Shown here: one piece after another, positions 7,541 to 60,784 of the stretch
Position numbering within the stretch: the first letter of the stretch is position 1
How the letters are laid out: each line of letters starts with the position of its first letter
DNA from: Gloeocapsopsis sp. IPPAS B-1203
GTDB taxonomy: Bacteria; Cyanobacteriota; Cyanobacteriia; Cyanobacteriales; Chroococcidiopsidaceae
Direction of reading: 5' to 3'
NCBI RefSeq assembly: GCF_002749975.1
Contig: NZ_PEIG01000009.1
Location: forward strand, 1 to 64,000
DNA: 64,000 nucleotides
Made by a program: the position numbers and the translations under genes
The notes under the pieces: model-generated
The model's database searches: none
What the model was told of the DNA's origin: nothing
Seen by the model: only the letters and a program-made list of their open reading frames with translations

Positions 7541-7667
7541 CACAGACGCCCTACGACTGAAGTCGGGGCTACTGAGACAAAGTGTGCCTGCGCACACTAA
7601 GTAAGATAGTAGGCTTATCAATAAGTCTACGGAGGTGGAAAGTGTTTGTTGATCTGCGAATTTATTT
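7541..7667 (+). repeat. MITE-like element, copy A (partial)
   Basis: Contains the element's internal hairpins: CGACTGAAGTCG (7555-7566), GTGTGC-CTGC-GCACAC (near 7582-7597) and a decayed AAGTCTAC-GGAG-GTGGAAAG. The first and last ~20 bases of the full element are missing. The right edge runs into the stop codon (7662-7664) of the GH1-RmlD gene. The second hairpin differs from other copies by paired changes that keep the stem. Confidence 0.75.
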
Positions 7668-9854
7668 GAGTTCATCGAAGTAACGAGCGATCGCACTCTC
7701 AAGGCCAGGAAGCAACTCGCCGCGATTACTACCAAGAACACTATAACTTGGGCGGGGAGCGATTAAGCCTAGTTCTTGCAACGGACGAGCAATCACGTTA
7801 CTGGTACTCAAACCGGCTGTTTTGGCAGCTAGTCGTGCCAAGTCAGCCCAGGCGATCGCACTTTTGTTTGCCAAGTGCCACAAGCCGCACTCACCATCAA
7901 TTAACAAGTCAAGGCTAGTATGGACAAGATCGGGGACATATGTGGGTGAGACGATGGCATCCTCTGCGGCAATAAACGTCCGCCCCGCAGCCAACTCACG
8001 CAATGCGATCGTCACAAAGTTGTAATTATCCCAAGGTCCGAAAAAGGCACTCGTGCGAATTACCAATGATGCAGGATAAGCACTTAATACTCGCTCTTCG
8101 GCTAAAGCTTTACTCTGTCCATACACATTCAGCGGAGTCGCTGGATCGTCTTCTACATATGGCGTGGATATCGCACCATCAAACACCAAATCTGATGAGA
8201 AAGTCAGCAATGCTATATTATGTCGAGCGCAAACAGCGGCTAAAGTTGCGGGTCCTTGCGTATTGACCAGCATACAAATCTCCGGTTCGCGTTCCGCGTC
8301 GTCTACCCGTACATATCCAGCGGCATTGACAATTGCCCACGGCTGTAACTCAGTGAGAAATGCATCAACAGCGATGGGATCGGTAATGTCCATCTCTTGG
8401 CGCGTCAATAACTGGTACGAGATCCCCCGTAGATCGCAAATGCGTGCAAAAGCTTGACCAAGCGTTCCGGTTGCTCCCACGATCGCAATCGGTTTAGAGG
8501 TAACTCCTAAAGGAGGCTCAAAAGACGTTTTCTCCTGAGTTGAAACAGGGGGAAATAACAGCCGCGCTTGCCGATGCCACCATCCTGGGGTTGCTAGTAA
8601 TGGGTGCTGTGGAGTATGTCCAGCAGCAAGATCGCAGATCATTTTAGCGATCGCTGTCGGTCGGGGATGCAGCGAACGGACATCGAATACACCTGGCTCG
8701 TAATAGCCGTCACAGCGAGTGACTAAGTTATGCCAATCGTAGCTACCTAACAGCGACCAAGCGGTAACAGCGCGAACATCCACACCGCGATCGCGCAATT
8801 CTTGTGTGGTATTCCATACTTCGTATAGCCAGCGCAACTGTTCCTCACGGGTGCAGTTGAGGTGAACTTCAGTAATTGCCAGCGGTAATTTGTAGCGTTC
8901 CCACGCTTCTGCAAGCAAGCGGCGATGTCCAGCTATGCCTTCAGCACATACCCGTACCGCCTCGATATCTGCGTACTGATGCTTGCCATTACCTCCATGC
9001 GACCAACTTGGATAGCGTTCGATCCGCTCGTCCAACAAGCGATCGCTTGTTAGGTAGTGATTAATTCCCATAATATCCGGCGGACAAGGATTTTCTAAAA
9101 ATCCCGCAAGTTCAGCTTCATCGACTCCACACTGATGCAAGTAGTGCCACATCGGATGCGTTGGAGACAGCCTACCACACAACAAATCGAAACTTAGCCA
9201 GCGGCGCTCGTTTTCTAACGCTGCTTGGTATGCCAACAACGGCGTACTAAAAATTTTACCCAAATCTTCGGTTTGCACGAGTTGAGCATGAGGATTGACT
9301 TCGCGGATTGCCAAAATTGAAAGTGCGATCGCTCGGCACTGCCCTAACAAAGCGCGGATGAAAGTTAATTCATCTCTGCCGTGAGGATACCAATGACCGT
9401 ATAATCCACTAAATCGTGCCGTTGTTAATGGCTCATTGATTGGCGTGTAATGTGTCACCCAAGGATAGCGTTCAGCAACCGCACGCGCAAACGCAGCGAG
9501 TTTCTCTGGAAATTCTGGATCTACCAAGCTGGTATCGCTAGGACCACTACCATGATGCACTAATCCGACAATGGGACAAATGCCCAGTTCTCGCAATCGA
9601 CCTAGCCGTACATCAGCCCAAGTCCAATCAGCATTCTCGATGCCATTGGGTGCGATCCGCTCCCACAAAATTGGGTAACGAATCGTACGTATCCCCAGTT
9701 CGGCAAATAAATCCAAGTCATTCACGCGGGTTGCATGACCGTTGCGTTGCAACTGATCGAAATACTCATCACCCACACGATTAACTGTACACTCCAATCC
9801 AGCCCAGATTTCTACGGGATGTTTTGATACCATTTGGTTGAATGATTGTGACAT
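7662..9854 (-). CDS. GH1-like glycosidase fused to RmlD-type sugar-nucleotide reductase
   Basis: 730 residues. Residues ~15-405 are a glycoside hydrolase family 1-like barrel: TPINEP places the acid/base at Glu141, and ITEVH places the nucleophile at Glu329, although the usual TENG is TEVH. Residues ~450-728 are an extended SDR domain of the dTDP-4-dehydrorhamnose reductase type, with the NAD(P) loop GATGTLGQ (460-467), VNAAGYVRVDDAE, the active-site YGQSK and a SPTYVPDL substrate loop. The N-terminal barrel would cleave or transfer a beta-glycoside and the C-terminal domain would reduce a nucleotide-linked keto-sugar; linking these suggests glycan modification or synthesis. It lies head-to-tail with the glycosyltransferase-Glf fusion. 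Its 3' end borders a repeat element, so the last residues may be altered. Confidence 0.85.
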   Translation of the reverse strand: MSQSFNQMVSKHPVEIWAGLECTVNRVGDEYFDQLQRNGHATRVNDLDLFAELGIRTIRYPILWERIAPNGIENADWTWADVRLGRLRELGICPIVGLVHHGSGPSDTSLVDPEFPEKLAAFARAVAERYPWVTHYTPINEPLTTARFSGLYGHWYPHGRDELTFIRALLGQCRAIALSILAIREVNPHAQLVQTEDLGKIFSTPLLAYQAALENERRWLSFDLLCGRLSPTHPMWHYLHQCGVDEAELAGFLENPCPPDIMGINHYLTSDRLLDERIERYPSWSHGGNGKHQYADIEAVRVCAEGIAGHRRLLAEAWERYKLPLAITEVHLNCTREEQLRWLYEVWNTTQELRDRGVDVRAVTAWSLLGSYDWHNLVTRCDGYYEPGVFDVRSLHPRPTAIAKMICDLAAGHTPQHPLLATPGWWHRQARLLFPPVSTQEKTSFEPPLGVTSKPIAIVGATGTLGQAFARICDLRGISYQLLTRQEMDITDPIAVDAFLTELQPWAIVNAAGYVRVDDAEREPEICMLVNTQGPATLAAVCARHNIALLTFSSDLVFDGAISTPYVEDDPATPLNVYGQSKALAEERVLSAYPASLVIRTSAFFGPWDNYNFVTIALRELAAGRTFIAAEDAIVSPTYVPDLVHTSLDLLIDGECGLWHLANKSAIAWADLARLAAKTAGLSTSNVIARPLQELGLIAPRPSYSVLGSNRGELLPGLESAIARYFDELK

Positions 9855-9875
9855 TTAAATAACTAAAACTGACGA

Positions 9876-10023
9876 TTGGTAAGATGCCCTCCGACTGAAG
9901 TCGAGGCTACCCAGGCAAAGTGTACCTTCGTACACTCAAACAAAACATTTAGCAGCAATTCCACGGAGGTAAATGTGGTTTGTTTAGCTACGAATTCATT
10001 CGCAATCGCATTCGTACAGGAAG
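9876..10023 (+). repeat. MITE-like element, copy B
   Basis: Carries CCGACTGAAGTCG, GTGTACCTTCGTACAC, a decayed CCACGGAGG hairpin and the GAATTCATTCGC segment. The terminal inverted repeats are weak. It lies between the two sugar-locus fusion genes, about 20 bases upstream of the GH1-RmlD start on the other strand. Confidence 0.8.
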
Positions 10024-10136
10024 TTTGATGAGTTAAAAACACAAGCCGTAATTTCTAAGCAAACAGCAGCTTGCTTAAATACAGCAGTCGAAGTATAGGT
10101 GAGAACATTATGGAAGCTCAGAGCCTTTGTCTTGTA

Positions 10137-10180
10137 AAGTTTGCTCAACGGGGAAACCCCGCACGCAACGCAAACCGCTG
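10137..10180. repeat. Short hairpin repeat (GTTGCTCAACGGGG type)
   Basis: The hairpin CGGGG-AAA-CCCCG is flanked by TGCTCAA and GCAACGC. A similar hairpin element with CGGAGG-AAA-CCTCCG and flanks GTTGCTACAA / GCAACGC lies at about 30890-30922. These look like one family of small palindromic repeats. Confidence 0.5.
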
Positions 10181-10253
10181 TCCTAACTAGCTTTTAACAC
10201 TGACCCTTACTACAGGTGATGTGTTGATTGCAACTTGTTTCACCATTACCAAT

Positions 10254-12647
10254 TCAAGCTTTAAGTGCAATTTGCTTGTAAACCGCCAGCGCCTGGGCAA
10301 CGCATTGATCCATGTTGTAATACTTGTACGTTGCTAGCCTTCCGACAAAATACACTCGTGGTGTTGTATCAGCGAGTGCTTTGTACTGCTTGTAGATTTC
10401 CTGATTCTCAGGGCGCGGTACGGGGTAGTAAGGATCTCCCTCAGCTTGGGGAAATTCGTAAACGATGCTTGTTTTATGGTGTTCTTGCCCAGTTAGGTAT
10501 TTAAACTCTGTGACACGAGTATACAAGTGTTCGTTGGGATAGTTAATGACTGGTGCTGGTTGAAACACAGCAGCGTGATGCGTTTCGTGTTTAAAATCGA
10601 GCGATCGATACGGTAACTTACCATAGCGAAAATCAAAAAACTCATCAACCGGTCCAGTGTAAACCATCTCGCGGCAAGGTATCGCTTTGGCAATTTCTCG
10701 ATAATCCGTATTTAGCATGACTTTAATGTTGGGATGAGCCAACATATTCTCGAACATCCGTGTAAAACCGTGTCGTGGCATCGCTTGGTAGATGTCGGTG
10801 AAATAGCGATCGTCGCGGTTGGTACGAGTGGGAATCCGCGCGATTACCGATTTATCGAGTTCTGAGGGATCGAGTCCCCATTGTTTGCGCGTGTAGCCTC
10901 GGAAGAATTTTTCGTATAACTCCCGGCCGACTTTACTCACTACGACATCCTCACTCGTGCGGATGTATTCCCTTGATTCCCCAATCGATTTAAAGAATTC
11001 TGCTGCTTCAAATGAATTGAGGTTCATACCATACAGCTTGTTGATGGTGTCGAGGTTAATCGGAATCGGGACAAGTTGCCCATCTACACTTGCAAGAACG
11101 CGGTGTTCGTAAGCCCGCCACTGTGTGAAACGTGAAAGATACTCGAAGACTTCACGGGAGTTGGTATGAAAAATGTGCGGACCATATTTGTGAATTAGGA
11201 CGCCATGCTCGTCGTAACAATCGTAGGCGTTGCCACCAATGTGATTGCGCTTGTCTACAATCAGCACTGTTTTGCCATCACTTGCCAACCGTTCGGCGAT
11301 CGCACTGCCAGAAAACCCCGCCCCGACAATCAAGTAATCGAAGACAAATCTAGTAATAATGCTTGGTGCTTGTGGAATACTGGTCGTGCTGTCATGTTTA
11401 GCCGCGATCGCTGAATCAATGAGTTGGATCATTGATCCCCAAGTGCGATCCCATGAAATCTGTTCTAAAAAGGTATCTACTCGGCTTAACCATCTCAATG
11501 CAACATCCTCTTGCATTGCTGTTTGCACAGCGGTGACAAACTCCTCAACTGTGTCTGCAATTCGCACCAACTGCATCTCACCATAGGGACGCACCACGTC
11601 GCGAATTGAGGTGGATACCACAGGCTTACCCGCAGCGAGATACTCCGGAGTCTTCGTCGGGCTAATAAAGCGGGTTGATTCGTTGTGTGCAAACGGTAGT
11701 ATCGCCAAATCCCATCCAGCTAAATACGCAGGTAGCTGTTTGTAATCTTTCGCACCGAGGTAATGAATGTTTGCGCGTTGTGGTAAAGTTGCCGGATCGA
11801 TTTTTGCTACAGGTCCAAGCATCACCAAATGCCAGTCGGGACGCGCATCAGCAATTCCAGCGACTAACTCGATATCCATGCGTTCGTCAATCACGCCAAA
11901 AAAGCCTAAGCGGGGATGAGGAATATGAGCTTGATCGGCTGGTTCCTCTGCTTGAGATCTTGCTTGGGCAAAGTGGGCTACATCAACACTGCTAGGAAAA
12001 GCATAAACGTTCGGGTGCTGGTTGACTTTACTTTCGTAAAGGCTTTGTCCTCCGGTAAATACTAAGTCTGCACGACGGAATAATTCAGCTTCATAGTTTT
12101 TTAAAGCAGGGGATGCCCCTTTAAATGCAGACAATTCATCCATGCAATCGTATACCACTACTTCAGGTTGCAAATGACGTGTAAAGGCGATCGCCATTGG
12201 AGTGTAGTACCAACAGATGTACTTGCTGATGTTCTGCTGGGCAAACAAATTATCAATTAATTTTTGTAAGGTGGGAGCGATCGCCTCTTCACTCAATGCT
12301 TCTGGTAAGTGCGGCACAACAACCCAAACCCCACTTTCATCACGATTGATCTCCAACCTTTCTTCTTGATGTGAGCTAAAAATAGGTTCCTCAATGAAGA
12401 AGACTCGTTTTCTTTGAGCGCAGCGATTTAGAAGATGTTGAGGTCTTTGATAAACAAACTTCCAGCGCAAGTGAGATAAACAAATGACATCTGCTATCTC
12501 TGTAAATTCTATTGTTCTGAAATCGGTTTTGGAGCCTGATGATGAGTCTAGTGGTTCTGTTGCTATTGATAGCTTGGCTTCATCAACGCTGGATGACACC
12601 GCACCATTACTACCATTCTCTGCTGATTGAGCGTTTTCTCTGGGCAT
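10254..12647 (-). CDS. glf: Glycosyltransferase fused to UDP-galactopyranose mutase
   Basis: 797 residues in two enzymes. Residues ~50-405 resemble the GT4-like glycosyltransferase clade that begins LSHLRW.FVYQRPQHL and ends with FISPTKTPEYLAAGKPVVST, the Glu-containing donor-sugar motif. Residues ~432-797 are UDP-galactopyranose mutase: FAD loop DYLIVGAGFSGSAIAE, NHIGGNAYD, YGPHIFHT, and the C-terminal GRLATYKYYNMDQ that closes over FAD. Glf converts UDP-galactopyranose to UDP-galactofuranose, the donor for galactofuranosyl transfer. Fusing mutase to transferase implies the product is passed directly to a glycan. Twice the usual Glf length (~380) because of the fusion. Together with galT and galK downstream on the other strand, it suggests galactose-to-galactofuranose flow. 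Confidence 0.9.
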   Translation of the reverse strand: MPRENAQSAENGSNGAVSSSVDEAKLSIATEPLDSSSGSKTDFRTIEFTEIADVICLSHLRWKFVYQRPQHLLNRCAQRKRVFFIEEPIFSSHQEERLEINRDESGVWVVVPHLPEALSEEAIAPTLQKLIDNLFAQQNISKYICWYYTPMAIAFTRHLQPEVVVYDCMDELSAFKGASPALKNYEAELFRRADLVFTGGQSLYESKVNQHPNVYAFPSSVDVAHFAQARSQAEEPADQAHIPHPRLGFFGVIDERMDIELVAGIADARPDWHLVMLGPVAKIDPATLPQRANIHYLGAKDYKQLPAYLAGWDLAILPFAHNESTRFISPTKTPEYLAAGKPVVSTSIRDVVRPYGEMQLVRIADTVEEFVTAVQTAMQEDVALRWLSRVDTFLEQISWDRTWGSMIQLIDSAIAAKHDSTTSIPQAPSIITRFVFDYLIVGAGFSGSAIAERLASDGKTVLIVDKRNHIGGNAYDCYDEHGVLIHKYGPHIFHTNSREVFEYLSRFTQWRAYEHRVLASVDGQLVPIPINLDTINKLYGMNLNSFEAAEFFKSIGESREYIRTSEDVVVSKVGRELYEKFFRGYTRKQWGLDPSELDKSVIARIPTRTNRDDRYFTDIYQAMPRHGFTRMFENMLAHPNIKVMLNTDYREIAKAIPCREMVYTGPVDEFFDFRYGKLPYRSLDFKHETHHAAVFQPAPVINYPNEHLYTRVTEFKYLTGQEHHKTSIVYEFPQAEGDPYYPVPRPENQEIYKQYKALADTTPRVYFVGRLATYKYYNMDQCVAQALAVYKQIALKA

Positions 12648-13475
12648 AAATTATTTCAAGCTTTTTAATTAAAGTGATTATGAAGAGACTTACTAGATAA
12701 ACACAAAATTGCCTTGTTCTTGCACTTCACCTCAAGAACTATTGCCATGATTATTGAGTGGAATAAATTACTGCTTTTAGATTAGTAACTCTAAATTAGA
12801 GATTAAATTACATTAAATCAATTAACATCTACATTACAGAGCATATTTGTTTATATCAAAGGGAAGAAACTGTATGATTTTTATTTGTAAGCATAAATAC
12901 AAACGATTGTAATGGCTTAATAATAGAACTATGTTTTTTATTGGTAGTAATTTATTTTTCCTATAAACTTAACTAGGTTGATTCTTTTCAATTAATTTGA
13001 ATCTGCACTCCACACCAAAAAACTATTTAACAAACATAAATTTGCCTAAGTGCCAAGACAAAACTGCTGCTCAGAGCAATCTATTGCCTTCAACGTGTAC
13101 AACAAATGATTCAAGGAAACTCTACCTAAAGTTTTAGTTTAAGTTTACGTAATCTTGTATTCATTTTTTCACTTATGGAAAATGACGTGAATTCATGCCT
13201 CCAATATGCAACATTGGAATTTATCAGTTTATTGCAAAATGCTCTGATGCAAGCCTGTGAGTACTAACGATAGGTTGTCCAAGTTGTGAAACGCCGTTAC
13301 AATTCCCTCAAGCCTAGCTTTATCTGTAACCTTTAATTAAATCGTTTTTATAGATACATCTTAGTTTATATTAGTTTTACTCTTAAGGTAGAAGTGACAT
13401 TTAAGTAAAATACTTAACCTACTACTAGCAGCATTTTTTTGACAATGAATAACTTATTAGCCTACTAACTAAAAT
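12648..13475. other. Intergenic, AT-rich, divergent promoter region
   Basis: About 830 bases with no convincing coding frame and no member of the repeat families. It separates the minus-strand fusion genes from the plus-strand GH2-galT-galK group and should hold promoters for both directions. Confidence 0.45.
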
Positions 13476-13673
13476 ATGCAATTTCAAATTGAATGTAATA
13501 CCTTGAAAAATAGTGAAACTTGCTTGATATGTACAAAGCAGTTTCAGATGCAGAAGGCAAGATTAATTGTCTGCAATGACCAGGGTGATAGTTATGGAGA
13601 TATTTGCCCTCAGTGCGCGGCTATGGGCGCTTATTGGATTGGTCAACAACTTAAAGCCTTAGACGGGCGATAG
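13476..13673 (+). CDS. Small cysteine-rich zinc-ribbon-like protein
   Basis: 65 residues with two Cys pairs, ETCLICTK (C-L-I-C, residues 16-19) and ICPQCAAMG (C-P-Q-C, near 44-47), spaced as in a treble-clef or zinc ribbon. Ends in a short helix (YWIGQQLKALDG). No family name recognised; the protein is short but the Cys pattern and codon use support a real gene. It lies 470 bases upstream of the GH2 gene and is probably transcribed independently. Confidence 0.55.
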   Translation: MQFQIECNTLKNSETCLICTKQFQMQKARLIVCNDQGDSYGDICPQCAAMGAYWIGQQLKALDGR

Positions 13674-14145
13674 ACTTGGCTCCTAAGTTCTTTTGAAGAG
13701 TTACAAATTTAGTTTGTGCAAATAAATTATTCCTAGTTCCTAAGTTTATTGTATACATAAAACTTTTGAACTATTTTGCTATTAACAAAATAGCCACTAC
13801 TTGATTTGCCTAAAATCTTCAAAATATAGGATGCCATTCTCGCTAGTGTGAAGTCGCAAAACTTTTGAATAATATATTTAAATACGCAATTTAAACATAT
13901 TTAGCGTGCTATTGAATCTTTAAAGCATCGTTAATGCAATCCTATTCTCTTAAGAGAGGTACTTTGCCTTGTTCAATGGCAAGTACTAGCACTGAATATT
14001 AGTAGTTGATATAAGTAATTAAACCTAGATTACTCCCTCAACAATATTGCAAAAAATGTTATATGTCTGAAGTATAGTTGAGCTTGGCTTGCCCTCGGTT
14101 TAAGGAAAAAGAATTTTTCGTGTAGCGTCTAAAGGATATGTTTTA
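13674..14145. other. Intergenic upstream of the GH2-galT-galK operon
   Basis: AT-rich spacer of about 470 bases. No gene, repeat or riboswitch seen. It should contain the operon promoter. Confidence 0.4.
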
Positions 14146-16002: not shown

Positions 16003-17093
16003 AGCCAGATGGTCGTCATTTAACTTTATACAGTCGCTACCCAATTGATAGCAATATCACAGCCGTCAGCCCCAGTAATGAACCAGTGCAAGCAAATCCG
16101 CATCTGCGCTGGCATCCCTTACGCGGTGAATGGGTAGCCTACGCGAGTCACCGTCAAGCGCGGACATTCATGCCGCCTCCAGAATATAACCCCCTCGCAC
16201 CTACCAGCAATCCCACGTTTCCGACGGAACTACCATTAGGTAGATATGACGTCGCCGTGTTTGAGAACCGCTTTCCCTCACTCACAGTGGCTGCACACGA
16301 TCCGCCGCCGTCGATTGTGGAAACTTTACCCGCGCATGGTGCTTGTGAGGTGGTGGTATTTACGCAAGATCCGCAAGCTTCACTGGGTTCATTGGCACTC
16401 GACCACTTAGATTTGCTGTTGCAAGTGTGGGGCGATCGCACGCGCGTCCTTGGGGGAAATTCCCAAATTCAGTACGTCCTACCGTTTGAAAATAAGGGTG
16501 TGGAGGTGGGCGTAACGTTACACCATCCCCACGGACAAATTTATGCTTATCCATTTATTCCACCCGTACCCGCACGCATGCTAGAGATGCAACGGCGCTT
16601 TTACGCAGAACATCAACGGGGTTTGCTGCAAGATTTGATTGTCAAGGAGATTGCCGACAACCAAAGAATCGTTTATCAAGATGAAGCAGCGATCGCATTC
16701 GTGCCGGTATGTGCGCGTTATCCTTATGAGGTCTGGATTGCCCCGATTCAACCCGTTGCCACCTTTTGTGACCTGAGTGCAGCGCAACGCTGGAGTCTTG
16801 CCAAAGCTTTAAAAACGGTGACACTTAAATATGATGGCTTATGGCAGCGCCCATTTCCGTACTTGATGGCGTGGTTTCAAGCACCTACCGATGGCGAAGC
16901 GCATCCCGAAGCACATTTGCACGCCCAATTTTATCCTCCCTATCGGACAAGCGATCGCCTGAAATATTTAGCAGGAACTGAACTCGCCGCCGGGATGTTT
17001 GCTAATGATGCCCTACCAGAGGAAAAAGCAAAAGAGTTACAAGCTGTCGTTATTAATAGTGATGACACAACTCTATGGTTGCGGAATAGGTAA
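15981..17093 (+). CDS. galT: Galactose-1-phosphate uridylyltransferase
   Basis: 370 residues. GalT exchanges UMP between UDP-glucose and galactose-1-phosphate, the second step of the Leloir pathway. The HIT-type active site HHPHGQIYAYPF is present, with the uridylylated His in H-P-H-G-Q, as are HLRWHPLRGEWV near the N-terminus, VFENRFPS, and the C-terminal EAHLHAQFYPP metal motif. The ATG at 15981 lies inside the GH2 gene and is preceded by AGGAGG at 15972-15977, a very strong ribosome site that supports coupling. The last two codons and the TAA stop fall within a GGTAAT heptad repeat, so the repeat has supplied the C-terminus. Confidence 0.93.
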   Translation: MYSHKLLKPDGRHLTLYSRYPIDSNITAVSPSNEPVQANPHLRWHPLRGEWVAYASHRQARTFMPPPEYNPLAPTSNPTFPTELPLGRYDVAVFENRFPSLTVAAHDPPPSIVETLPAHGACEVVVFTQDPQASLGSLALDHLDLLLQVWGDRTRVLGGNSQIQYVLPFENKGVEVGVTLHHPHGQIYAYPFIPPVPARMLEMQRRFYAEHQRGLLQDLIVKEIADNQRIVYQDEAAIAFVPVCARYPYEVWIAPIQPVATFCDLSAAQRWSLAKALKTVTLKYDGLWQRPFPYLMAWFQAPTDGEAHPEAHLHAQFYPPYRTSDRLKYLAGTELAAGMFANDALPEEKAKELQAVVINSDDTTLWLRNR

Positions 17094-17148
17094 TAGGTAA
17101 TGGGTAATGGGTAATGAGAAACAAAAAGATATTTACCAATTACCAGTT
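17085..17148. repeat. GGGTAAT/ATTACCA heptad inverted repeat, site 1
   Basis: Four tandem units of the AATRGGTAAT type are followed after a short loop by TTACCAATTACCAG in inverse orientation, so the segment can fold into a hairpin. It contains the galT stop codon and lies in the galT-galK spacer. Confidence 0.8.
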
Positions 17149-20685: not shown

Positions 20686-20849
20686 AGACCTCCTGCGTGA
20701 ATACTAGGCGAATGAATTCGCTGCTACATAAACTAAGTCCACTTCCGTGGACTTACCCATAAAAACCTTGTTTGAGTGTACGAAGGTACACTTTGCTTGA
20801 GTAGCCCCGACTTTAGTCGTAGGGCATCTGCCATTCATACAGAAGGTCT
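20686..20849 (-). repeat. MITE-like element, copy C (full length)
   Basis: 164 bp bounded by imperfect 17-bp terminal inverted repeats: AGACCTCCTGCGTGAAT at the left and the complement of AGACCTTCTGTATGAAT at the right, each flanked by TA. Internal hairpins AAGTCCAC-TTCC-GTGGACTT, GTGTAC-GAAG-GTACAC and CGACTTTAGTCG. Orientation is opposite to copies A, B, D and E. Confidence 0.9.
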
Positions 20850-21466: not shown

Positions 21467-21524
21467 TTCCTTGTCTTTAACCATGTCCCTTTCTCCTTTT
21501 CCCAACTAATGCCACGAAGTATAT
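21467..21524. repeat. 58-bp dispersed repeat, copy 2
   Basis: Matches 4481-4538 at 53 of 58 positions. It lies immediately downstream of the 99-residue gene, as copy 1 lies downstream of the truncated hemerythrin gene. Confidence 0.6.
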
Positions 21525-23157: not shown

Positions 23158-23321
23158 AGACCTCCTGCATGAATCGTAGATGCCCTACGACTGAAGTCGG
23201 GGCTATCCAGGCAAAGTGTACCTTCGTACACTAAAATGAGATTTTTAGTAGTAAGTCCACGGAGGTGGACTTTGTTTAGATAGCAGCGAATTTATTCGCC
23301 TAGTATTCACGCAGGAGGTCT
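23158..23321 (+). repeat. MITE-like element, copy D (full length)
   Basis: 164 bp with terminal inverted repeats AGACCTCCTGCATGAAT and its complement in ATTCACGCAGGAGGTCT. Internal hairpins CGACTGAAGTCG, GTGTAC-CTTC-GTACAC and AAGTCCAC-GGAG-GTGGACTT are all perfect. This is the best-preserved copy and can serve as family reference. It lies 38 bases downstream of crtW. Confidence 0.92.
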
Positions 23322-26915: not shown

Positions 26916-27079
26916 AGACCTCCTGGATGAATCACATATTGCTCTACGACTAAAGTTAAGGCTATCCAAGCAAAGTGTACCTTCGTACACTCAAAAGCTT
27001 TTTAGCAGAAAGTCCACGGAGGTGGACTTTGTTTATTTAGCAAGCGAATTCATTCGCCCAGCATTCTCCAGACGCTGCT
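26916..27079 (+). repeat. MITE-like element, copy E
   Basis: Left terminal repeat AGACCTCCTGGATGAAT is good; the right one has decayed (CATTCTCCAGACGCTGCT). Internal GTGTAC-CTTC-GTACAC and AAGTCCAC-GGAG-GTGGACTT hairpins are perfect; the third is CGACTAAAGTTA, disrupted on one side. Length matches copies C and D. Confidence 0.88.
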
Positions 27080-32171: not shown

Positions 32172-32268
32172 TTGGGGAATGGGTAACGGGTAACGGGTAA
32201 TGGGTAACGGGTAATAGATATTCTCAATACATTACCAATTACCAATCACCAATTACCTATTACCAGTC
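32172..32268. repeat. GGGTAAT/ATTACCA heptad inverted repeat, site 2
   Basis: Five tandem units GGGTAAC/GGGTAAT, a 20-base spacer, then five inverse units (ATTACCAATTACCAATCACC and so on). It can fold into a long hairpin and lies in the phaA-phaB spacer. Confidence 0.8.
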
Positions 32269-33021: not shown

Positions 33022-33055
33022 AATCAGGACAGAAGGGGCAGGCATACTTTTGGTT

Positions 33056-33131
33056 GTTGGTAATGGGTAATGGGTAACAGGTAATTTTTAATAAGTAATC
33101 TTTCCAATTACCAATTACCAGTTACCTACTT
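33056..33131. repeat. GGGTAAT/ATTACCA heptad inverted repeat, site 3
   Basis: Three direct units (GGTAATGGGTAATGGGTAAC), a short spacer and three inverse units. It lies between the convergent phaB and the hydrolase gene, where it could act as a bidirectional terminator. Confidence 0.8.
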
Positions 33132-33135
33132 TCAT

Positions 33136-34413: not shown

Positions 34414-34750
34414 AAGTAGGTACACATTGATCAGGAATTCACTAATACATAAAATAACCGGTATTACTAGCCTAAAACCATAACTAAAGAAGTAGATGTC
34501 TATTAAATATTTGTGTTGGTAAAGATACAAAATGCTGTTATTAAGTCACTGTAGGTTAGTTTATTAAAATAACTTTTAAACCTTTGGTTGAAGTTATCAT
34601 ATTTTACTAAATTTTTAATAAATAAAAATATTATAACTGTGCTGCTTTGTTCAAGTCATAGTGAATAAGTCTTTTAACAAAATGTGAAAAGTTTCTAAGT
34701 TGGTCAATATACAGCAAAGTAGGTGGACATAATTAAATATCACACTTGTT

Positions 34751-34872
34751 AAGGTCGGTAATGGGTAATGGGTAATGGGTAATAGGGAACTTAAAAAGCT
34801 TTTATCACTTGGCAATTAGCATTTAGCCACACAAACGAATTGCTACCAATGACCAATGACCAGTTACCAACC
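34751..34872. repeat. GGGTAAT/ATTACCA heptad inverted repeat, site 4
   Basis: Four direct units (GGTAATGGGTAATGGG...) and, after about 65 bases, inverse units of the CCAATGACCAATGACC and GTTACCAACC type. It lies about 90 bases downstream of the psaB terminator. Confidence 0.75.
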
Positions 34873-42722: not shown

Positions 42723-42794
42723 AAATAGGTAATATTAAGTGGAAATATCTTTAGACTTTACCAATTACCCATTACCAATCACCAATTACCTACT
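42723..42794. repeat. GGGTAAT/ATTACCA heptad inverted repeat, site 5
   Basis: One direct unit (AAATAGGTAAT), then five inverse units (TTACCAATTACCCATTACC and following). Its last bases touch the stop of the PAS-CRP gene. Confidence 0.75.
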
Positions 42795-43956
42795 TCAACA
42801 AAATGATGTGATGTTCGTTATCAATCGAAATCATTCCTTGCTCTTTAAGTTTGTTGAGTTGGCGAGTTGTTGTCACTCGTGTCGCACAACACGCACTCGC
42901 AAGTTCTTCATGTGTAAAACGCACACTTAAACGAGTTCCTTGCGTTACAGGCTGACCGATTTCTTGTTTGAGAAATTGTAATAGATAGTGCAAGCGGTGC
43001 TTGACTCGTCGCTGACCTGAAATGTGTAAAAGTAACTCAGTTTGAAGGAGGCGAGAAGTCAGTTTGGGGACTAGTTTTTGAACTCTAAAAGGGCAATCAA
43101 GCCACTGAGTTAAGGGAAAGCGAACTAACTCAACGTTATTTGTCAGCGCGGTTGCTTGATAAATATCTAGTGAAGTGATACTTGCGCCAAAAGGCATTGA
43201 GGAACTTGCTAATCCCACAAGAACTTCTTCTCCTGTATCGCTCATCGTACTTAGCTTAACAACACCTTGGCAAACTTGATAAATTTCTTGATTATTAATC
43301 GGAATTAGTTCCCCTTTATAGTAGCGATCCTTATAGCTATTGCTCAGAATCTCGTCATCAATACTTGAACCGGATATTGATTGTCGCTGTACATTCTCGC
43401 GTAACAGCCAACGCAAACCAACTATTTGCTCGCGTTCATCACAAATTGTAATATAATTTATATCTACATTATTCAATCGCTTGCCATTAGGTAGCCAAAA
43501 GTTAACTTTGAACGGCGGAGTGAATTTAATTTTTTGATATTTTCTTGCTAAATTATAGTTAAAATGCTGACAGCTTTCTTCTGTAAGTAAATCTGTTAGA
43601 TTCTTCCCAACTAAGTCTTCTGAAGCAAGTTCAAATAGTAATGTTGCTGCACGATTAACCTCTTGAATTTTGCCTTTATCATCTGTCACAATATAGCTTT
43701 CAAAAGCAAACTCGAATAAATCACAATAGCGCTGACGTTCCGCAGCTATGATTGCTTGTGCAGCCATCAATTGTTGTTGCTGTTTATGCAGTTCTTTGGC
43801 AGCTATTTGAAGTTCTTGTGCAGCTATACCTAGTTCTTTAAATGCTGATGGTAGTAGCTCTAAACGAGGCACAAAAGAATCGTTGGCATCTTTAGATAAT
43901 ACCTCCAACCGAGAAGACATATTGTTTACTCGTTGAACGAATCTGTCAATATCCAT
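42790..43956 (-). CDS. PAS-CRP fusion transcriptional regulator
   Basis: 388 residues. Residues 1-75 are a coiled coil, about 75-200 is a PAS domain (FEFAFESYIVTDDKGKIQEV, NRAATLLFE), and 230-388 resemble Crp/Fnr proteins: a cNMP-like beta-roll (YQVCQGVVKLS, EVLVGLASSSMPFG) and a C-terminal winged helix (FTHEELASACCATRVTTTRQL, then KLKEQGMISID). The PAS sensor joined to a Crp-like effector implies a one-component regulator. The phosphate-binding motif of true cAMP receptors is not seen, so ligand use is unclear. It lies directly upstream of the hybrid kinase gene on the same strand. Confidence 0.82.
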   Translation of the reverse strand: MDIDRFVQRVNNMSSRLEVLSKDANDSFVPRLELLPSAFKELGIAAQELQIAAKELHKQQQQLMAAQAIIAAERQRYCDLFEFAFESYIVTDDKGKIQEVNRAATLLFELASEDLVGKNLTDLLTEESCQHFNYNLARKYQKIKFTPPFKVNFWLPNGKRLNNVDINYITICDEREQIVGLRWLLRENVQRQSISGSSIDDEILSNSYKDRYYKGELIPINNQEIYQVCQGVVKLSTMSDTGEEVLVGLASSSMPFGASITSLDIYQATALTNNVELVRFPLTQWLDCPFRVQKLVPKLTSRLLQTELLLHISGQRRVKHRLHYLLQFLKQEIGQPVTQGTRLSVRFTHEELASACCATRVTTTRQLNKLKEQGMISIDNEHHIILLK

Positions 43957-44024: not shown

Positions 44025-44118
44025 AATCAATCTCCGACTTTCTTCGGGGCTATTGAGGCAAAGTATACGAAAGTACACTAAGTTTATTTAGCTGCGAACT
44101 CATTTGCTCAACTGTGAT
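44025..44118 (+). repeat. MITE-like element, copy F (partial)
   Basis: Retains TCCGACTTTCTTCGGGGCTA, AAGTATACGAAAGTACACT and GCTGCGAACTCATTTGC. The GTCCAC hairpin and both terminal repeats are missing. Confidence 0.7.
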
Positions 44119-50130: not shown

Positions 50131-50136
50131 CTAGAT

Positions 50137-51231: not shown

Positions 51232-51238
51232 GGACTTG

Positions 51239-53718: not shown

Positions 53719-53740
53719 AATATTTCTCCAACACGCTGTT

Positions 53741-54985: not shown

Positions 54986-55069
54986 AGCTATTGTAAAATT
55001 AGTAATCAAATTGACTTCAATTTACCTGCTGAATGCAAATAACATTGAAAATCACTCTTCATAATAAAG

Positions 55070-55106
55070 AAAGAGTAGGGTAAAGAGGGAATATACCCTA
55101 CTCTTT
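55070..55106 (-). terminator. Strong hairpin after peroxidase gene
   Basis: Perfect 13-bp stem AAAGAGTAGGGTA / TACCCTACTCTTT with an 11-base loop, followed on the minus strand by CTTTATTATG. Lies between the peroxidase stop and the hydrolase start. May be a partial terminator or an mRNA-stability element within the operon. Confidence 0.7.
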
Positions 55107-55127
55107 GCTCTTGTACGGAGCGCTTAA

Positions 55128-56723
55128 TTAATCACCAACTGGATTAATATCACTAACAAACCTGAGTAAATCAGCCATTGTAAATGTTCCTGGATTTTGT
55201 GCAGGAAGTGTTGGTTTCCAATCAGGTTTTCTCACTAAGAATGAACTACTATCTTTTTGCAATAAACCAACAAAAACTTCAGCAACAATGCGGCTGCCTA
55301 CTTTTCCTAAATGTTCGCCGTTGCCTTGAATTTCTGCTTCTTTAAGAATGTAATACCACAAAGGAGATTCAAGATCAAAACCATGTTCTTTAGCAACTTT
55401 GCCATCTTCTCCTGTTGCAATATCGGCAGGTGATAAGGGTTGAAATCCCATTAATTTGGCAACACTTTGACCAGGTGGTAAACCTACTTTTAGTCCGCGT
55501 AGTAAGTTTCTTACTGCTAAAGATCTCGGTTCTGGAACGTTTGGCAAGTCTTTAAGCGGGTCAACAAGTAAAGGATCTAATTTACGACTTAAACCTACTG
55601 GTACGTTTGAATCAATTTCAAAAAACCTTCTCCAATCAATAATCCAGTTACTAGGAAGTGTGGGGTTAAGTCCTAGCGGTGTATCTCTTCTTCCTGATTT
55701 GGCAGTAAATTCAAAGAGGAGTTGGAGTGTGGCACTGTCAAACTTGCTATCTGTTTCTAGGAAGGTAAAGACGCGGTTATAATCATAAGCAGTACGTACC
55801 ATACTGTGTCCGAGGCGATAAGCCGCAACAGAAAACTCTAGGGGAATAAATGCATCGCCTTGAGGTTTGTAGAAAGATGGTCCCTGGTTGAGGACAAGAT
55901 TGAGTTGTTCGTTGTCAAGAATACGCTTGAGAAAATCATGAAGAACAATCCATTGATAGTGCCAAATAACTAAATCTCTGGCTTCTTCAAACGCAGACTT
56001 ACGGATAGGAGATTCTTGTTGAATTGTGTCATCTTGAATGCCTTGCACTACCTTATTGTGGAATTTGAGGAACGCAAGATGTAATTGGGAAACAATCAGA
56101 TTTTCATCATTACGAGGATCGCCGAGTAGCCCTAGCTTACTTGAGGCGCGAGGAATATCATTTGGTAGTATGCCTAATTGTTCGCCTTGTCTTCCTGTAG
56201 GGCTTTCAGTTGTTTGTCCGATTAAGAAAAATTCTGGTCTTTCCAGTTCGTAGAGATAGGGTTGCACCTCTGGACCTGCACCATAAAGGCTATCTAGGTC
56301 AAGCATAGGGGTGCGAAAGTTTCTGAGGGCTAAAGGATCGTTAAGTGTTTCTTGCAGCGAAGTGATATCAAAAGTAATGTCGTGGTCGATAAATTGACCT
56401 AAATATGTATAACCTGCAGGAACTGTTTTATTGTCGCCTGCAGGATCATTTTCACTCGGATCGTCTGGAAATTTAGGATCGCTCATGGCATTTCCTAGGG
56501 CTTCCAAACTCTTTTGAAACTCTTCTAAACTTTTATTTGCAGGTGCTAGCGGACGTAGTTCCGGAAATAATCTACCAAACTTTCCTGTAGGGACAAATTG
56601 ACCAATTGGTTGATTGTCTTCTTTGCGCGGACCAAAGCCATGCATTCTCCCAACACGTTCTCCCGCAGGTCTACGTGGAGTAAAACCTTGAATTTTGCTT
56701 TGATTTTTTTGCTGTATATTCAT
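55128..56723 (-). CDS. Animal-type heme peroxidase family protein
   Basis: 531 residues. The family motif YTYLGQFIDHDITFD holds the distal His (GQ(F/W)xDHD), and AYRLGHSMVRTAYDYNRVF holds the proximal heme His. LHLAFLKFHNKV and PRDNEN-type RNDENLI regions match bacterial members of the peroxidase-cyclooxygenase superfamily. Length fits short bacterial forms. These use heme and H2O2 or O2 to oxidise halides, phenols or fatty acids; a lipid-oxygenating role is one option. No signal peptide, so cytoplasmic or peripheral. First gene of the unit with the hydrolase and the unknown protein. Confidence 0.9.
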   Translation of the reverse strand: MNIQQKNQSKIQGFTPRRPAGERVGRMHGFGPRKEDNQPIGQFVPTGKFGRLFPELRPLAPANKSLEEFQKSLEALGNAMSDPKFPDDPSENDPAGDNKTVPAGYTYLGQFIDHDITFDITSLQETLNDPLALRNFRTPMLDLDSLYGAGPEVQPYLYELERPEFFLIGQTTESPTGRQGEQLGILPNDIPRASSKLGLLGDPRNDENLIVSQLHLAFLKFHNKVVQGIQDDTIQQESPIRKSAFEEARDLVIWHYQWIVLHDFLKRILDNEQLNLVLNQGPSFYKPQGDAFIPLEFSVAAYRLGHSMVRTAYDYNRVFTFLETDSKFDSATLQLLFEFTAKSGRRDTPLGLNPTLPSNWIIDWRRFFEIDSNVPVGLSRKLDPLLVDPLKDLPNVPEPRSLAVRNLLRGLKVGLPPGQSVAKLMGFQPLSPADIATGEDGKVAKEHGFDLESPLWYYILKEAEIQGNGEHLGKVGSRIVAEVFVGLLQKDSSSFLVRKPDWKPTLPAQNPGTFTMADLLRFVSDINPVGD

Positions 56724-57454
56724 AGTTTTTGACTTTCGTCGTTGATATTGGGGTCAATTGGGAAAATTGAATCTGTGAAGCTAGAGACAGTGAGCTACCT
56801 AAGATTTGAGAGGTAAATTCTCAGATGAAAGCGATCGCACTTTGTTAGAATTACCTGATATCTGCATGAAAAATTTGGTGACTTCATCATGCTTCACCCT
56901 TTGAAATTATAGTGACAGTTAGCTTTGCAACTAATCTGTGAGTGTATTAATGTCTTCTATTTACAAATCGAGTTTTTCGGAATTTTCTCAATTTTTTTTG
57001 TAAATATTTTTTAAGAGGAAAATAGCGTTTGATAAGTAATGTTATGTAAATTGCTGTGTTTTCTAGAGCAATCTTATCTAAGTTGTCAAAAATATTTTTG
57101 ACAGACTTTAGAGCTAGAATAACTATAATTTATTGGTATATCAAAAATATTGCATGCTAATTATGGCAGTCTTTTTCTTGTTATTTATCAGTCGCTAGAA
57201 TTGCAGAGAGTACCTTCGTAACCGTGACTATATTAGCGTGCCTTATATTACACTGAGTTTTTTGTCTACCTATAAAAAAATCTCACTTCTATCCTGACTT
57301 GTTCGGAATTGCATAATATTGTATGTTACTCATGACTTCAGTAGGTTTCTTAATGAATTTAACAATGCTGGATTGTTTTGTATAAATTAGTCTAAAACTC
57401 CAGCAAAAACCTGCGTTGACTACCTTGAACGAGATGTCAATAGGAAAGCAGCTA
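56724..57454. other. Intergenic between divergent genes
   Basis: About 730 bases, AT-rich with T-tracts and one HIP1 site. No coding frame or repeat-family member seen. Holds promoters of the peroxidase operon and the acyltransferase-like gene. Confidence 0.4.
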
Positions 57455-58315
57455 ATGAGTGACTTGCAGATACGGCATGTATCCGATTCTGTGTTAATGT
57501 CAATGACAGAAGAAGAAATGGCTAGTTGGCGTCGCCAGCAGGGTGCGCGTATCACCTATCATCATGGGCGCTACTGGGAAGAAGTCATACCTGGTTTTTA
57601 TCAGCCAATTCATTTAATGGCTCGCTTGAGTGCCCAAGAAGCAACGCGCCCTACACCTTTGTGTTGGGGATTTAGGGCAGCACTACATACTGATGATACT
57701 GTAGTTGCTAACGGTTCAGTACCTGTTTATTTGTTGACTGACGTTGCTAACTATGACTTGCATATCTTACCTCAAAAACGTAGAACTCATGTACGAAAAT
57801 GTCACAAAATGGTTACAATCGTACAGCTCATGAGTCCAGCACTGTTGCAACAACAAGGATACGAAGTTTTTTGCTCGTCGCTGCAACGAACGAAACACAA
57901 GAATCTACTCACAAAAGAAACCTATTTAGCAGGTTTAAAAGACTTTAGCACTAACAAACATCGACTGGTGCTTGCAGGTCTCATTGGAGACAAGTTAGGT
58001 GGCTATATCGATGGATATGCTGTTAATGGCACTGCATACATGGTTAGTGGCTATTATGCGACTGAGGCTTTACCAACTAGCATTGTCACTGGATTAACCT
58101 ATGAGTTTGTCCAAATCTGCCGTCGTTCTGGTAAAATCCACGAGATTGTCGATGGTTTGCACGTACGGGAAAATTCAGCGCTAGATTTGCCTAAAACAAC
58201 AATGGGATTTGCAGTTGAATATGTTCCCAGTAAAGTTTGGATGAATTTAATCATGAAAAATCTTGTCCGCTGGCGATATCCACACAAATACTATCGTTTA
58301 ACTGGACATGATTAA
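57455..58315 (+). CDS. FemAB/GNAT-like acyltransferase family protein
   Basis: 286 residues from ATG 57455, preceded by AGGAAAG; ORF extends upstream to a TTG. Blocks such as LPQKRRTHVRKCHK and LVLAGLIGDKLGGYIDGYAVNG resemble the C-terminal acetyltransferase (FemAB/GNAT-like) fold in which a basic loop precedes the acyl-donor site. Not assignable to a specific reaction. Monocistronic. Confidence 0.5.
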   Translation: MSDLQIRHVSDSVLMSMTEEEMASWRRQQGARITYHHGRYWEEVIPGFYQPIHLMARLSAQEATRPTPLCWGFRAALHTDDTVVANGSVPVYLLTDVANYDLHILPQKRRTHVRKCHKMVTIVQLMSPALLQQQGYEVFCSSLQRTKHKNLLTKETYLAGLKDFSTNKHRLVLAGLIGDKLGGYIDGYAVNGTAYMVSGYYATEALPTSIVTGLTYEFVQICRRSGKIHEIVDGLHVRENSALDLPKTTMGFAVEYVPSKVWMNLIMKNLVRWRYPHKYYRLTGHD

Positions 58316-58506
58316 GACCAATAGAGCGCTCCAAATTTCTGAAAGTTTAGTCTTCTTCAGAGGTTAACCACTTGAGGTATACCTGCACACACCAAAATAA
58401 GAAATTTAATATCAATTAAACCAAAAAAACATTCTTTATGTATAAACTTTTCCCTTTAACCTAATTAATCCCACAAAGTCTAATGTAGTTTTTAGGTGTA
58501 GTAGAC

Positions 58507-59490
58507 ATGAGTGTTCGAGCAATTTTCCAAGCAGCTAAAGTCGCAGATGTTCCTTCTCCTTACGACACCATTCACCTCAAGGTTTTCTATCCAGCCCAGA
58601 TGTCAGGTAGCGATCAAGAACAGGATATGGGCGTTGTTCCTGCGGATGAAGAGCGATCGCCTTTTAAAGTGGTAATTTTCTTTAATGGTATCAACTGCGG
58701 TCCTGAAATTTATCAATGGCTTGCTGTGAAATTAGCAGAACGCGGACTAGTCGTTGTGACCTTTGCTTGGGTATCGCAAAATATCCCTGGAATGGTTGCG
58801 CTGACTCCTGGTGTCGATCTCAAAAATCTAGCTCCCAATACTTATGGTACTGCTCCAACTGCTTCTGCTTTACCGACGCTCTTAGCTGAGTTGGAGCGTT
58901 TACAATCCCAAGGAGTTCTCGCTGGCTTACTCGATTTACAAAATATCATTTTAGGGGGGCATTCTGCTGGAGGTAGAGTCGCACTTGAAAGCGCCAATCC
59001 ACAGTTTTTTCCGCAAGTTGTCGCAGCTTTTGCTTATGGCGCTCATACAGCAGCAATTTTACAGCTAGGATATCCACCAAACACAATTTTGCCCTTACCT
59101 GATGCTTTACCTTTAATGTTAATTGGAGGAACCTGTGATGGAGTGATTGCCAAAAGCAGCCATCGCTACGGAGTTGATTGGGAACAAGCAACAACCCCAA
59201 TTGTACGTACATTTAAGGAGGCGATCGCAGCCAACAGAGGTGATAGTTATCTTCTTCTTTTAGAAGGAGCGAACCATTTTTCGATAGCACATCCGTTTGA
59301 TTCTACAACAGGTAGACCTTTCTTAGATTTTCCGGCAACTCAACCAGAAGCACAATTAAGGAATTTAATCGCAGAAGCAATTGGTTTATTTATTGAGGCT
59401 CATGTTTGTCATCAATCTACTGCTATAGAAACTCTCAATCAACACTTAGTGTCTCACAACCCCTTAATTGCTTCATTTGAACGCAAGTAG
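58507..59490 (+). CDS. Alpha/beta hydrolase (dienelactone/chlorophyllase-like)
   Basis: 327 residues. The start ATG lies at 58507. NGINCGPEIYQWLA forms the oxyanion part; LGGHSAGGRVALE has the nucleophile Ser; and EGANHFSIAHPF has the catalytic His. This G-H-S-A-G-G arrangement with a late H fits the dienelactone hydrolase/chlorophyllase-like group common in cyanobacteria. Substrate unknown. Convergent with the DHOD-like gene, 7 bases apart. Confidence 0.82.
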   Translation: MSVRAIFQAAKVADVPSPYDTIHLKVFYPAQMSGSDQEQDMGVVPADEERSPFKVVIFFNGINCGPEIYQWLAVKLAERGLVVVTFAWVSQNIPGMVALTPGVDLKNLAPNTYGTAPTASALPTLLAELERLQSQGVLAGLLDLQNIILGGHSAGGRVALESANPQFFPQVVAAFAYGAHTAAILQLGYPPNTILPLPDALPLMLIGGTCDGVIAKSSHRYGVDWEQATTPIVRTFKEAIAANRGDSYLLLLEGANHFSIAHPFDSTTGRPFLDFPATQPEAQLRNLIAEAIGLFIEAHVCHQSTAIETLNQHLVSHNPLIASFERK

Positions 59491-59497
59491 TTCATCT

Positions 59498-60502
59498 TTA
59501 GCCAAAGTAGTAAGATGATTCGTAAATGCGTGCCCATTCAGGTTTGTATGTTTGGAGCGATCGCACGTACTGCGCTCTTTCAAATGCACTTTGATCGGGA
59601 GAATTTTTCTGACTTAAAGTTCCTTGCAATTGCTGTAGCGATTCATACTCGTGTTCTGTCAGCCATTGCTCTAGTTCTCGCTCAATTGCGTGTAGGTGAA
59701 GAATGCCATGCTGCAAGAGGACTGAACACAGCATTGTCACATTAGCTCCTACCATCAGTAGTTTAACTACATCTTGCCCAGTGTGAATTCCACTTGTTGC
59801 AGCTAAGCTAGCGTTGATGCGTCCGGATAAAATTGCAATCCAGCGTAGCGGTAAGCGCATGGCTTGGGGTGTGCTTAATAGAACATTCGGCTCAACTGCG
59901 AGAGTTTTGAGATTAATATCTGGTTGATAAAAGCGATTGAACAAGACTAAAGCGTCTGCACCTGCATCATCTAATCGCTTTGCCATGTTTGCCATGTTGG
60001 TAAAGTAAGGGCTAAGCTTAATTGCCACAGGAATCGACACCGATGCTTTAACTGCTCGCAGAATATTAATATAAGTTTGCTCGATCTGCTCGCCCGTCAC
60101 TTCCATATCGGTAGGAACATAGTAGACGTTGAGTTCTAGCGCATCTGCACCCGCTTGCTCAATTTGTCGAGCATAATTTGTCCAACCACCAACCGATGAA
60201 CCATTAAGACTAGCAATGATGGGAATATTGACGTGTTCTTTAGCGCGACGGATGTGATTAAGATATTCTTCAGAACCACCGCGAAATGCAGTGTTGGCAG
60301 AAGTGACACTACTGTGCGTAAGATCGTAGGCTTCTTGGCGTTGTGAACGTAGTTGTTCCTCAAAAAGTGAATGCAAGACAATAGCAGCTGCACCTGCATC
60401 TTCCATCAGTTTGAGGTTATCAATATCTTCTGATAAGGGTGATGCTGCTGGAATCAATGGCGATCGCAGTGTTAACCCTAGATAAGTTGTTGTTAAGTCC
60501 AT
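59498..60502 (-). CDS. Dihydroorotate dehydrogenase-like flavoenzyme
   Basis: 334 residues, a TIM barrel in the PyrD superfamily. Features: YLGLTLRSPLIPAASP, IPIIASLNGSSVGGW, ALELNVYYV, IPVAIKLSPYFTNM, LVLFNRFYQPDIN. The Ser/Cys loop (SVTSANTAFRGG) and the EYLNHIRRAK segment match the DHOD-like proteins that often neighbour pyruvate:ferredoxin oxidoreductase and are not true PyrD. No cofactor-domain partner nearby. Substrate uncertain. Confidence 0.88.
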   Translation of the reverse strand: MDLTTTYLGLTLRSPLIPAASPLSEDIDNLKLMEDAGAAAIVLHSLFEEQLRSQRQEAYDLTHSSVTSANTAFRGGSEEYLNHIRRAKEHVNIPIIASLNGSSVGGWTNYARQIEQAGADALELNVYYVPTDMEVTGEQIEQTYINILRAVKASVSIPVAIKLSPYFTNMANMAKRLDDAGADALVLFNRFYQPDINLKTLAVEPNVLLSTPQAMRLPLRWIAILSGRINASLAATSGIHTGQDVVKLLMVGANVTMLCSVLLQHGILHLHAIERELEQWLTEHEYESLQQLQGTLSQKNSPDQSAFERAQYVRSLQTYKPEWARIYESSYYFG

Positions 60503-60639
60503 ATATCAATGTTGATGTAAATTACCTGGTTTGCAGTTCGAGATTTGCAATTGAAACTCAGCTATCTATAGTTTCTTTCGTCACCCATCTACTTTTATAT
60601 AAAAATGGTGTGAGGAAATTGTGATTTTTGTTGGCGCTC

Positions 60640-60784
60640 ATAAGCTTGGCAAATAAATTTGCAGCTAAACAAACCTTATCCACCTCCGTGAACTTACTAC
60701 TACCTAATAGTGTGCGGAGGCACATCTTTGTCTGTGTAGCCCCGACTTCAGTCACAGGGCACTTGCAATTCATGTAGCAAGTCT
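60640..60784 (-). repeat. MITE-like element, copy G
   Basis: Reverse orientation. Contains CTTATCCACCTCCGTGAACTT, TGTGCGGAGGCACA, CCCCGACTTCAGTCACAGGGC and ATTCATGTAGCAAGTCT. Left end degraded. On its own sense strand the hairpin TGTGC-CTCC-GCACA shows the same paired A:T to G:C change as copy A. Confidence 0.82.

Follow-up and report, generated by a model that had tools for sequence, protein, structure and literature searches.

Hairpins in which both arms have changed together, so that they still match, are usually taken as proof of selection on RNA, and the question raised here is whether this holds for a repeat of the cyanobacterium Gloeocapsopsis sp. IPPAS B-1203. The window, that is, the whole stretch of 64,000 nucleotides analysed (positions 1 to 64,000 of contig NZ_PEIG01000009.1, assembly GCF_002749975.1), carries seven copies, A to G, of a short element made up largely of hairpins. 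The initial annotation had read the paired differences in one of these hairpins as selection on folded RNA or single-stranded DNA. Its hairpin 2 sequences are right (GTGTGC-CTGC-GCACAC in copy A, TGTGC-CTCC-GCACA in copy G, and GTGTAC-CTTC-GTACAC in copies B to E). We found, in addition, that hairpin loops of this family are inverted in place between orthologous copies, that loop columns covary far more strongly than stem columns, and that stem mismatches show no wobble preference. The matched stem changes are most likely better explained by a DNA mutation process than by selection on a folded RNA.

The repeat is a high-copy family of miniature inverted-repeat transposable elements (MITEs), and the annotation was borne out in this respect: the element is short (about 166 bp), noncoding, bounded by 17-bp terminal inverted repeats (TIRs) and present in high copy number. 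Its parts follow the order TIR, four hairpins with their linkers (H1 to H4), TIR; three internal hairpins had been described, and the core was counted here as four. In copy D (23158-23321, + strand), which is complete and was used as the reference, the left TIR (23158-23174, +) reads AGACCTCCTGCATGAAT and the right TIR (23305-23321) reads AGACCTCCTGCGTGAAT on the - strand. Between them lie H1 (23182-23203, +; GCCC-TA-CGAC-TGAA-GTCG-GGGC), H2 (23215-23232, +; stem of 7 bp, loop CTTC), H3 (23253-23272, +; stem of 8 bp, loop GGAG) and H4 (23286-23299, +; GCGAAT-TT-ATTCGC). The H2 and H3 loops are among those that flip between orthologs of other copies. All seven copies of the window are where they had been reported, a number that strongly undercounts the family, as a model of the core built on sequence alone finds at least 149 matches in the 5.9-Mb home genome (G000; best 150 of 2599 candidates scored). 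Family-wide counts were made on a set of 210 copies scoring at least 40 bits, of which 95 came from G000, 68 from G001, 20 from G002, 14 from G014, 6 from G010 and 7 from other genomes.

Orthologous copies were defined by 400-bp flanks matching on both sides, which gave 41 pairs between genomes (two loci each seen in three genomes are included, and nine one-sided matches were left out). Among these 41 pairs and four hairpins there were 11 exact in-place replacements of a loop by its reverse complement, 3 in H2, 7 in H3, 1 in H4 and 0 in H1, and the stem was unchanged in 8 of the 11. When two pairs at the tandem locus L023 and one pair with fewer than 100 aligned columns were dropped, the remaining 38 pairs displayed 3, 6 and 1 exact flips in H2, H3 and H4, plus flips accompanied by one further change (6 in H2, 1 in H3, 2 in H4). 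Nine ortholog pairs were aligned in detail for flips. In the pair L108/L245 (flank identity 95.1%), both H2 (CTCC/GGAG) and H3 (GGAG/CTCC) were flipped, the stems were identical, and so were all 38 nucleotides separating the two loops; both H2 and H3 were also flipped in L096/L180 (97.6%). Over the 11 exact flips, stems differed by 6.1% (not at all in eight) versus 11.9% in non-orthologous copies with opposite loops, and neighbouring linkers by 14.6% (not at all in three) versus 32.4%. Three flips came without any change in stem or neighbouring linkers. An inversion of the whole element was rejected, because the linkers keep their orientation.

The same relation appears in the 210-copy set, where counts refer to copies and not to independent events. 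Minor loop forms were the reverse complement of the common loop in 58 cases, its plain reverse in 6 and its plain complement in 0 (GGAG/CTCC counted once, mirror-symmetric loops left out, summed by hand), and five of the six plain-reverse loops were TTTC, which is equally one change away from the common CTTC. The forms recurring in the family were GGAG (78) and CTCC (28) in H3, TTTA (88) and TAAA (9) in H4, and TGAA (97) and TTCA (5) in H1. As a control, hairpins outside the family were taken from the flanks of the repeats. With stems of at least 6 bp, none of 116 alignable control hairpins was flipped (23 were not alignable) versus 7 of 55 in the family (p=0.0003), and with stems of at least 7 bp none of 36 versus 7 of 44 (p=0.015).

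We then consider the stems. Over 28 stem pairs and 210 copies, 4876 cells held a Watson-Crick pair; G·T numbered 251, A·C 253 and all other combinations 395. The balance between G·T and A·C was similar in each hairpin (104:97 in H1, 35:46 in H2, 69:73 in H3 and 43:37 in H4). Between orthologs, one-sided stem changes gave 60 G·T and 59 A·C. Since selection for pairing in one strand of RNA or single-stranded DNA would break this symmetry, such selection is disfavoured. Covariation was assessed on 208 copies (at least 100 aligned columns) by a G-test with average-product correction, against a tree-based null in which the substitutions inferred on each branch were re-dealt to other columns; this was our own R-scape-style script, and it ignores block mutations and recombination. 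The claim of paired stem changes stood at the level of the group and not at that of individual pairs. No single pair among the 28 reached E<0.05, the best (columns 39 and 46, E 0.67) ranking fourth of all column pairs, although this single-pair test has little power, given that even the best loop pair got just E 0.067. Taken together, the 28 pairs had a mean of 12.8, compared with a null mean of -0.1 and a null maximum of 5.0 (0 of 200 simulations), and the mean without pair 39-46 was 8.6. The signal was in register: 11 of the 28 pairs fell in the top 5% of all column pairs versus 4-26% when partners were slid by 1-4 columns, with slid means of -0.0 to 5.7.

Stem covariation is nevertheless not specific to pairing, for the 24 nonpairing loop-column pairs averaged 69.3, five times more than the stems. 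By hairpin, stem values were 28.1 for H2, 11.1 for H3, 9.7 for H4 and 3.1 for H1, and loop flips come in the same order. The wobble symmetry and the loop covariation point to a process that treats the two strands of the DNA alike, rather than to the fold of one strand. As to the change that had attracted attention, pair 39-46 (A-T to G-C, shared by copies A and G) also covaries with linker column 30 and loop column 43. The check by covariation thus came out above background for the group, and the sequence pattern of the A and G change itself points to a subfamily, that is, to shared ancestry.

Divergence between orthologs tells how the hairpins fare after insertion. In the 38 pairs it amounted to 10.2% in the flanks (which contain coding sequence and so are not strictly neutral), 11.6% in the TIR zone, 13.9% in linkers and 9.1% in stems, and no strong constraint on pairing is seen once the element is in place. 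Loops diverged by 9.2% in H1 and 8.1% in H4, and by 36.7% in H2 and 30.2% in H3 (33% for H2 and H3 together). Among 1037 ortholog stem pairs compared, 178 had changed on one side and 20 on both, where 11.5 would be expected if the two sides were independent.

We believe that the following account is probably correct. Once a MITE has been inserted, its stems drift at about the rate of the flanks. The two hairpins that pair best (stems of 7-8 bp, 4-nucleotide loops) also have their loops inverted in place: most likely, the replication machinery would change template across the hairpin, read the loop from the other strand and then return. In the longer past of the source elements, one arm would likewise have been copied from the other in a strand-symmetric way, and this, along with the shared ancestry of subfamilies, would produce paired stem changes without any selection on the fold. 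Judged from their pattern, the in-place flips are most likely the mark that template switching is known to leave at short inverted repeats; the polymerase mechanism, and the origin of the paired changes in arm copying, we infer from the same comparisons.

Several observations weigh against this account. The H3 flip in L057/L256 is doubtful, with five stem differences and an uncertain alignment. Only three control hairpins with stems of at least 8 bp were alignable, so that an effect of the family is not separable from that of any long perfect stem, and flipped copies showed no clear excess of perfect stems (21 of 31 versus 68 of 107 in H3; 13 of 15 versus 97 of 142 in H2). The 20 both-sided ortholog changes do not exceed those of slid controls (14-27), and arm copying is for this reason not visible on the ortholog time scale. 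Nine of these 20 keep a Watson-Crick pair versus 3.8 expected under uniform base change, an expectation that transition bias would raise. Since the loops of the family draw on a small pool of states, short-tract conversion between copies could mimic some flips, and a complex H2 variant, GTTGACGAGCGCACAC, which differs in place between L243 and L101 and recurs in L016, L029, L100 and L189, hints at conversion patches. Finally, the home genome yielded no partner element whose TIR is exactly this one.

The last but one of these points leads to the view that the loop changes are short-tract gene conversions between non-allelic copies, which would be helped by the presence of more than 100 similar copies per genome and by the recurrence of common loop states. 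We regard it as unlikely for the flips as a whole: the linkers at the 11 flips are at the divergence of orthologs (14.6%) and not at the 32% of unrelated copies, three flips involve neither stem nor neighbouring linkers, and the double flip in L108/L245, with identical sequence from one loop to the other, would require two short tracts independent of each other. A flip programmed by a site-specific recombinase or a transposase acting on hairpin tips would fit the occurrence of flips in the family and in 0 of 116 other alignable hairpins, but it is highly improbable, as H2, H3 and H4 flip despite unrelated stems, the inverted segment is just 4 bp long, and hairpin inversions in yeast and plastids are explained there by template switching or hairpin structure (PMC8604942, PMC12371153).

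Selection acting on the stems has to be weighed too. Compensatory substitution in a folded RNA or single-stranded DNA is what group covariation beyond the tree null, and only in register, would be expected to look like; the Watson-Crick pairs kept in 9 of the 20 both-sided changes and the lower divergence of stems than of linkers (9.1% versus 13.9%) go in the same direction, as do the strong predicted folds (z about -9). For copy D these were -9.2 and -9.1 on the two strands relative to shuffled sequences, a score on both strands that any nested palindrome would give. We consider such selection quite improbable, and the corresponding claim of the initial annotation is disfavoured: G·T and A·C are equal where one-strand pairing should favour one of them, unpaired loop columns covary above the stems, stems diverge at about the rate of the flanks, no orientation bias exists between codirectional open reading frames (ORFs) (27 versus 39, p=0.18), and a search of the window against Rfam gave 0 matches at the gathering score. 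The alternative that selection acts on double-stranded palindromes, extruded as cruciforms or bound by protein, for instance for transposition of the source elements, fits some of the data: strand-symmetric mismatches with group covariation of stems fit a need for inverted repeats and the linker bases GGCTA and AAAGT are nearly invariant. Still, stems are kept no better than flanks after insertion, and the loop flips and loop block changes would be left unexplained, and we give this alternative a small chance of being right.

Post-insertion drift with template switching at the tips, the account that we favour, has counterparts elsewhere. For yeast, PMC8604942 describes inversion of the spacer and homogenisation of the arms by template switching: the spacer of 2-5 nucleotides is inverted in place with the arms kept, as here, and the event is recurrent and reversible. 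There it was seen only with arms longer than 9 bp, in coding genes, whereas the arms of the present family measure 7-8 bp and belong to a bacterial mobile repeat. In rRNA histories, PMC8794818 reports template-switch patterns in which complete loop inversions are very rare, loops being conserved there. In plastid DNA, small inversions of 4-50 bp are described in the review PMC12371153 as pervasive and tied to hairpins; these too are hairpin-bound, but they concern single plastid loci and not a dispersed cyanobacterial family. The present changes look like the same process as these known hairpin inversions, at work in a bacterial repeat with loops that can vary freely. In the open-licence literature we found no paper on this repeat and no report of loop flips in a bacterial MITE; mutations of this kind are known, but for this setting our searches gave no report of them.

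By a rough hand estimate from the 41 pairs, which have diverged by about 10% and show seven flips (one of them doubtful), and with double flips ignored, a flip of the 8-bp hairpin would be about as frequent as a mutation of one or two of its bases. It is conceivable, although we hold it with some doubt, that loop inversion in the short well-paired hairpins of this cyanobacterial lineage is very frequent and goes in both directions. If so, hairpins of dispersed MITEs would offer a ready-made record of template switching during replication throughout the genome, with which the process could be measured in a bacterium, and paired changes in repeat families could not safely be taken as evidence of structured RNA. 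With its paired stem changes free of wobble preference and its tips changing in blocks, the family allows selection and template switching to be separated in one natural data set, and it may be a bacterial counterpart of the hairpin inversions of chloroplast DNA.

A BLAST search of the home genome with copy D gave at least 42 matches (best 40 of 187 candidates scored), and the TIR with a leading T had 98 hits genome-wide versus 5 for the pattern read backwards. A core match at E 1e-4 was found in 21 of 60 genomes, the home genome included (best 60 candidates scored per genome); both same-genus genomes had at least 60 core matches each, and G001 at least 148 (best 150 candidates scored). Among the first 30 loci, 17 copies had two TIRs, 14 of them measuring 166-169 bp with the TA ends included and the others 121, 152 and 177 bp. 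TA was present at both outer ends in 14 of the 17, and no longer duplication was seen. Clean empty sites were not found in G001 and G002 for the flanks of the C-D region, L003 and L002, where the sequence adjacent to the insertion had diverged, and four candidate empty sites (L331, L332, L329 and L317) were not clean when aligned. Around the 163 copies of G000 and G001, with ORFs called by a simple script, 66 lay between codirectional ORFs, 66 between convergent and 14 between divergent ones, 16 were undecided, and 1 core was within an ORF of at least 90 amino acids. The excess of convergent over divergent gaps fits insertion or survival at the 3' ends of genes.

REP and REPIN repeats, by comparison, are GTAG-tagged palindromes with a RAYT transposase. 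Nezha and other MITEs of Anabaena are likewise short, TIR-bounded, non-autonomous and cyanobacterial; Nezha is taken here from its citation in a review, and sequences were not compared. Further observations concern individual loci. L154 (G000:C17:66689-66889) has the same TIRs and parts similar to H1 and H4, with H2-H3 replaced by AT-rich, tandem-like sequence. G003 has a distinct 148-bp element, apparently an independent MITE, whose ends are near-perfect copies of this TIR pair; the spacing of 148 bp is found at L341 and in eight further pairs of TIRs. L188 (G001) and L207 (G014), which belong to two genera, have left flanks 98.6% identical and repeats that differ almost only in hairpin 3, and horizontal transfer of these loci is possible.

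An IS630/Tc1-type transposase had been suggested as partner of the family. None of 29 DDE_3 (PF13358) loci, 6 of G000 and 23 from relatives, carried this TIR; six further fetched loci and most PF13358 matches of the relatives were outside this set. A TIR scan with up to 2 mismatches found it in 18 of 19 chosen relatives, where small counts mean little because the backwards control itself gave 0 to 2 hits per genome. Five of the 20 returned loci had TIR pairs 914-1076 bp apart, namely L337 (914 bp), L338 (949 bp), L340 (1076 bp), L347 (945 bp) and L348. Six ORF pieces from four of these long elements matched HTH_Tnp_4 or DDE_Tnp_4 above the Pfam cut-off. The NCBIfam model for IS5, NF033581, gave these pieces their best scores, which stayed under the cut-off set for whole proteins since the pieces were searched apart. 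L347 has two overlapping ORFs spanning an A-rich stretch, an arrangement that suggests frameshifting. In G002, of the same genus, the element L354 measures about 949 bp; its arms match at 16 of 16 bases, and its gene contains stop codons. The home genome has three NF033581 matches, and the pair of these at C24 (L356 and L360) has the ends TAGACCTCTTGCAAAAG, with about 12 outer bases in common with the MITE.

The TIR TAGACCTCYTGCRTGAAT thus also bounds elements of 0.9-1.1 kb of the IS5 family (HTH_Tnp_4 plus DDE_Tnp_4, NF033581) in relatives (L337, L338, L340 and L347) and in the same genus (L354), from which the 166-bp repeat differs in having no ORF and an interior that is a set of hairpins. 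Because IS5-type elements carry the same TIR, an IS5-family transposase recognising TAGACCTCCTGCRTGAAT ends is, on sequence grounds, the likely mover of the copies.

Within the window, the pattern of the TIR, AGACCTCCTGCNTGAAT, had 7 matches when up to 3 mismatches were allowed, versus 0.46 expected, and none of 100 shuffles reached 7. Both TIRs are present in the near-complete copy C (20686-20849, -), with 2 differing sites apart from the N position. The 17-bp TIRs described for C and D are there, whereas their flanking TA is only loosely present at D (left end AAGACC). Copy A (7541-7668, +), of the GTGTGC hairpin 2 subfamily, is without the left TIR and overlaps (7662-7668) the 3' end of a 730-amino-acid ORF (7662-9854, -). 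Copy B (9876-10012, +) lies between ORFs and both its TIRs are decayed, while copy E (26916-27061, +) has a left TIR with 1 mismatch and has lost the right one. Copy G (60640-60784, -), with a GTGTGC-type hairpin 2, provides from its TIR the TAG stop (60783-60785) of the adjoining 892-amino-acid ORF (60783-63461, -). The degenerate copy F (44025-44118, +) is without the spacer and hairpin 3 and is absent among the 149 core-model matches listed. Hairpin 1 loop variants TCCC, TTCC and TTTC, with GTCGGGG changed to TTCGGGG, occur in L003, L007, L019, L021 and the window copy at 44025; these variants could form CCC-TTCG-GGG.

Other repeats also occur in the window. A 58-nucleotide repeat is present at 4481-4538 and 21467-21524 (91% identical), and beside the first of these there is a weak TIR-like match of the MITE family (4556-4572, -). 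Heptamer-type runs of GGTAATGGGTAATGGGTAAT and its complement, at 17089-17134, 32175-32264, 33052-33133, 34746-34810 and 42737-42801, look like the short tandem repeats of cyanobacteria.

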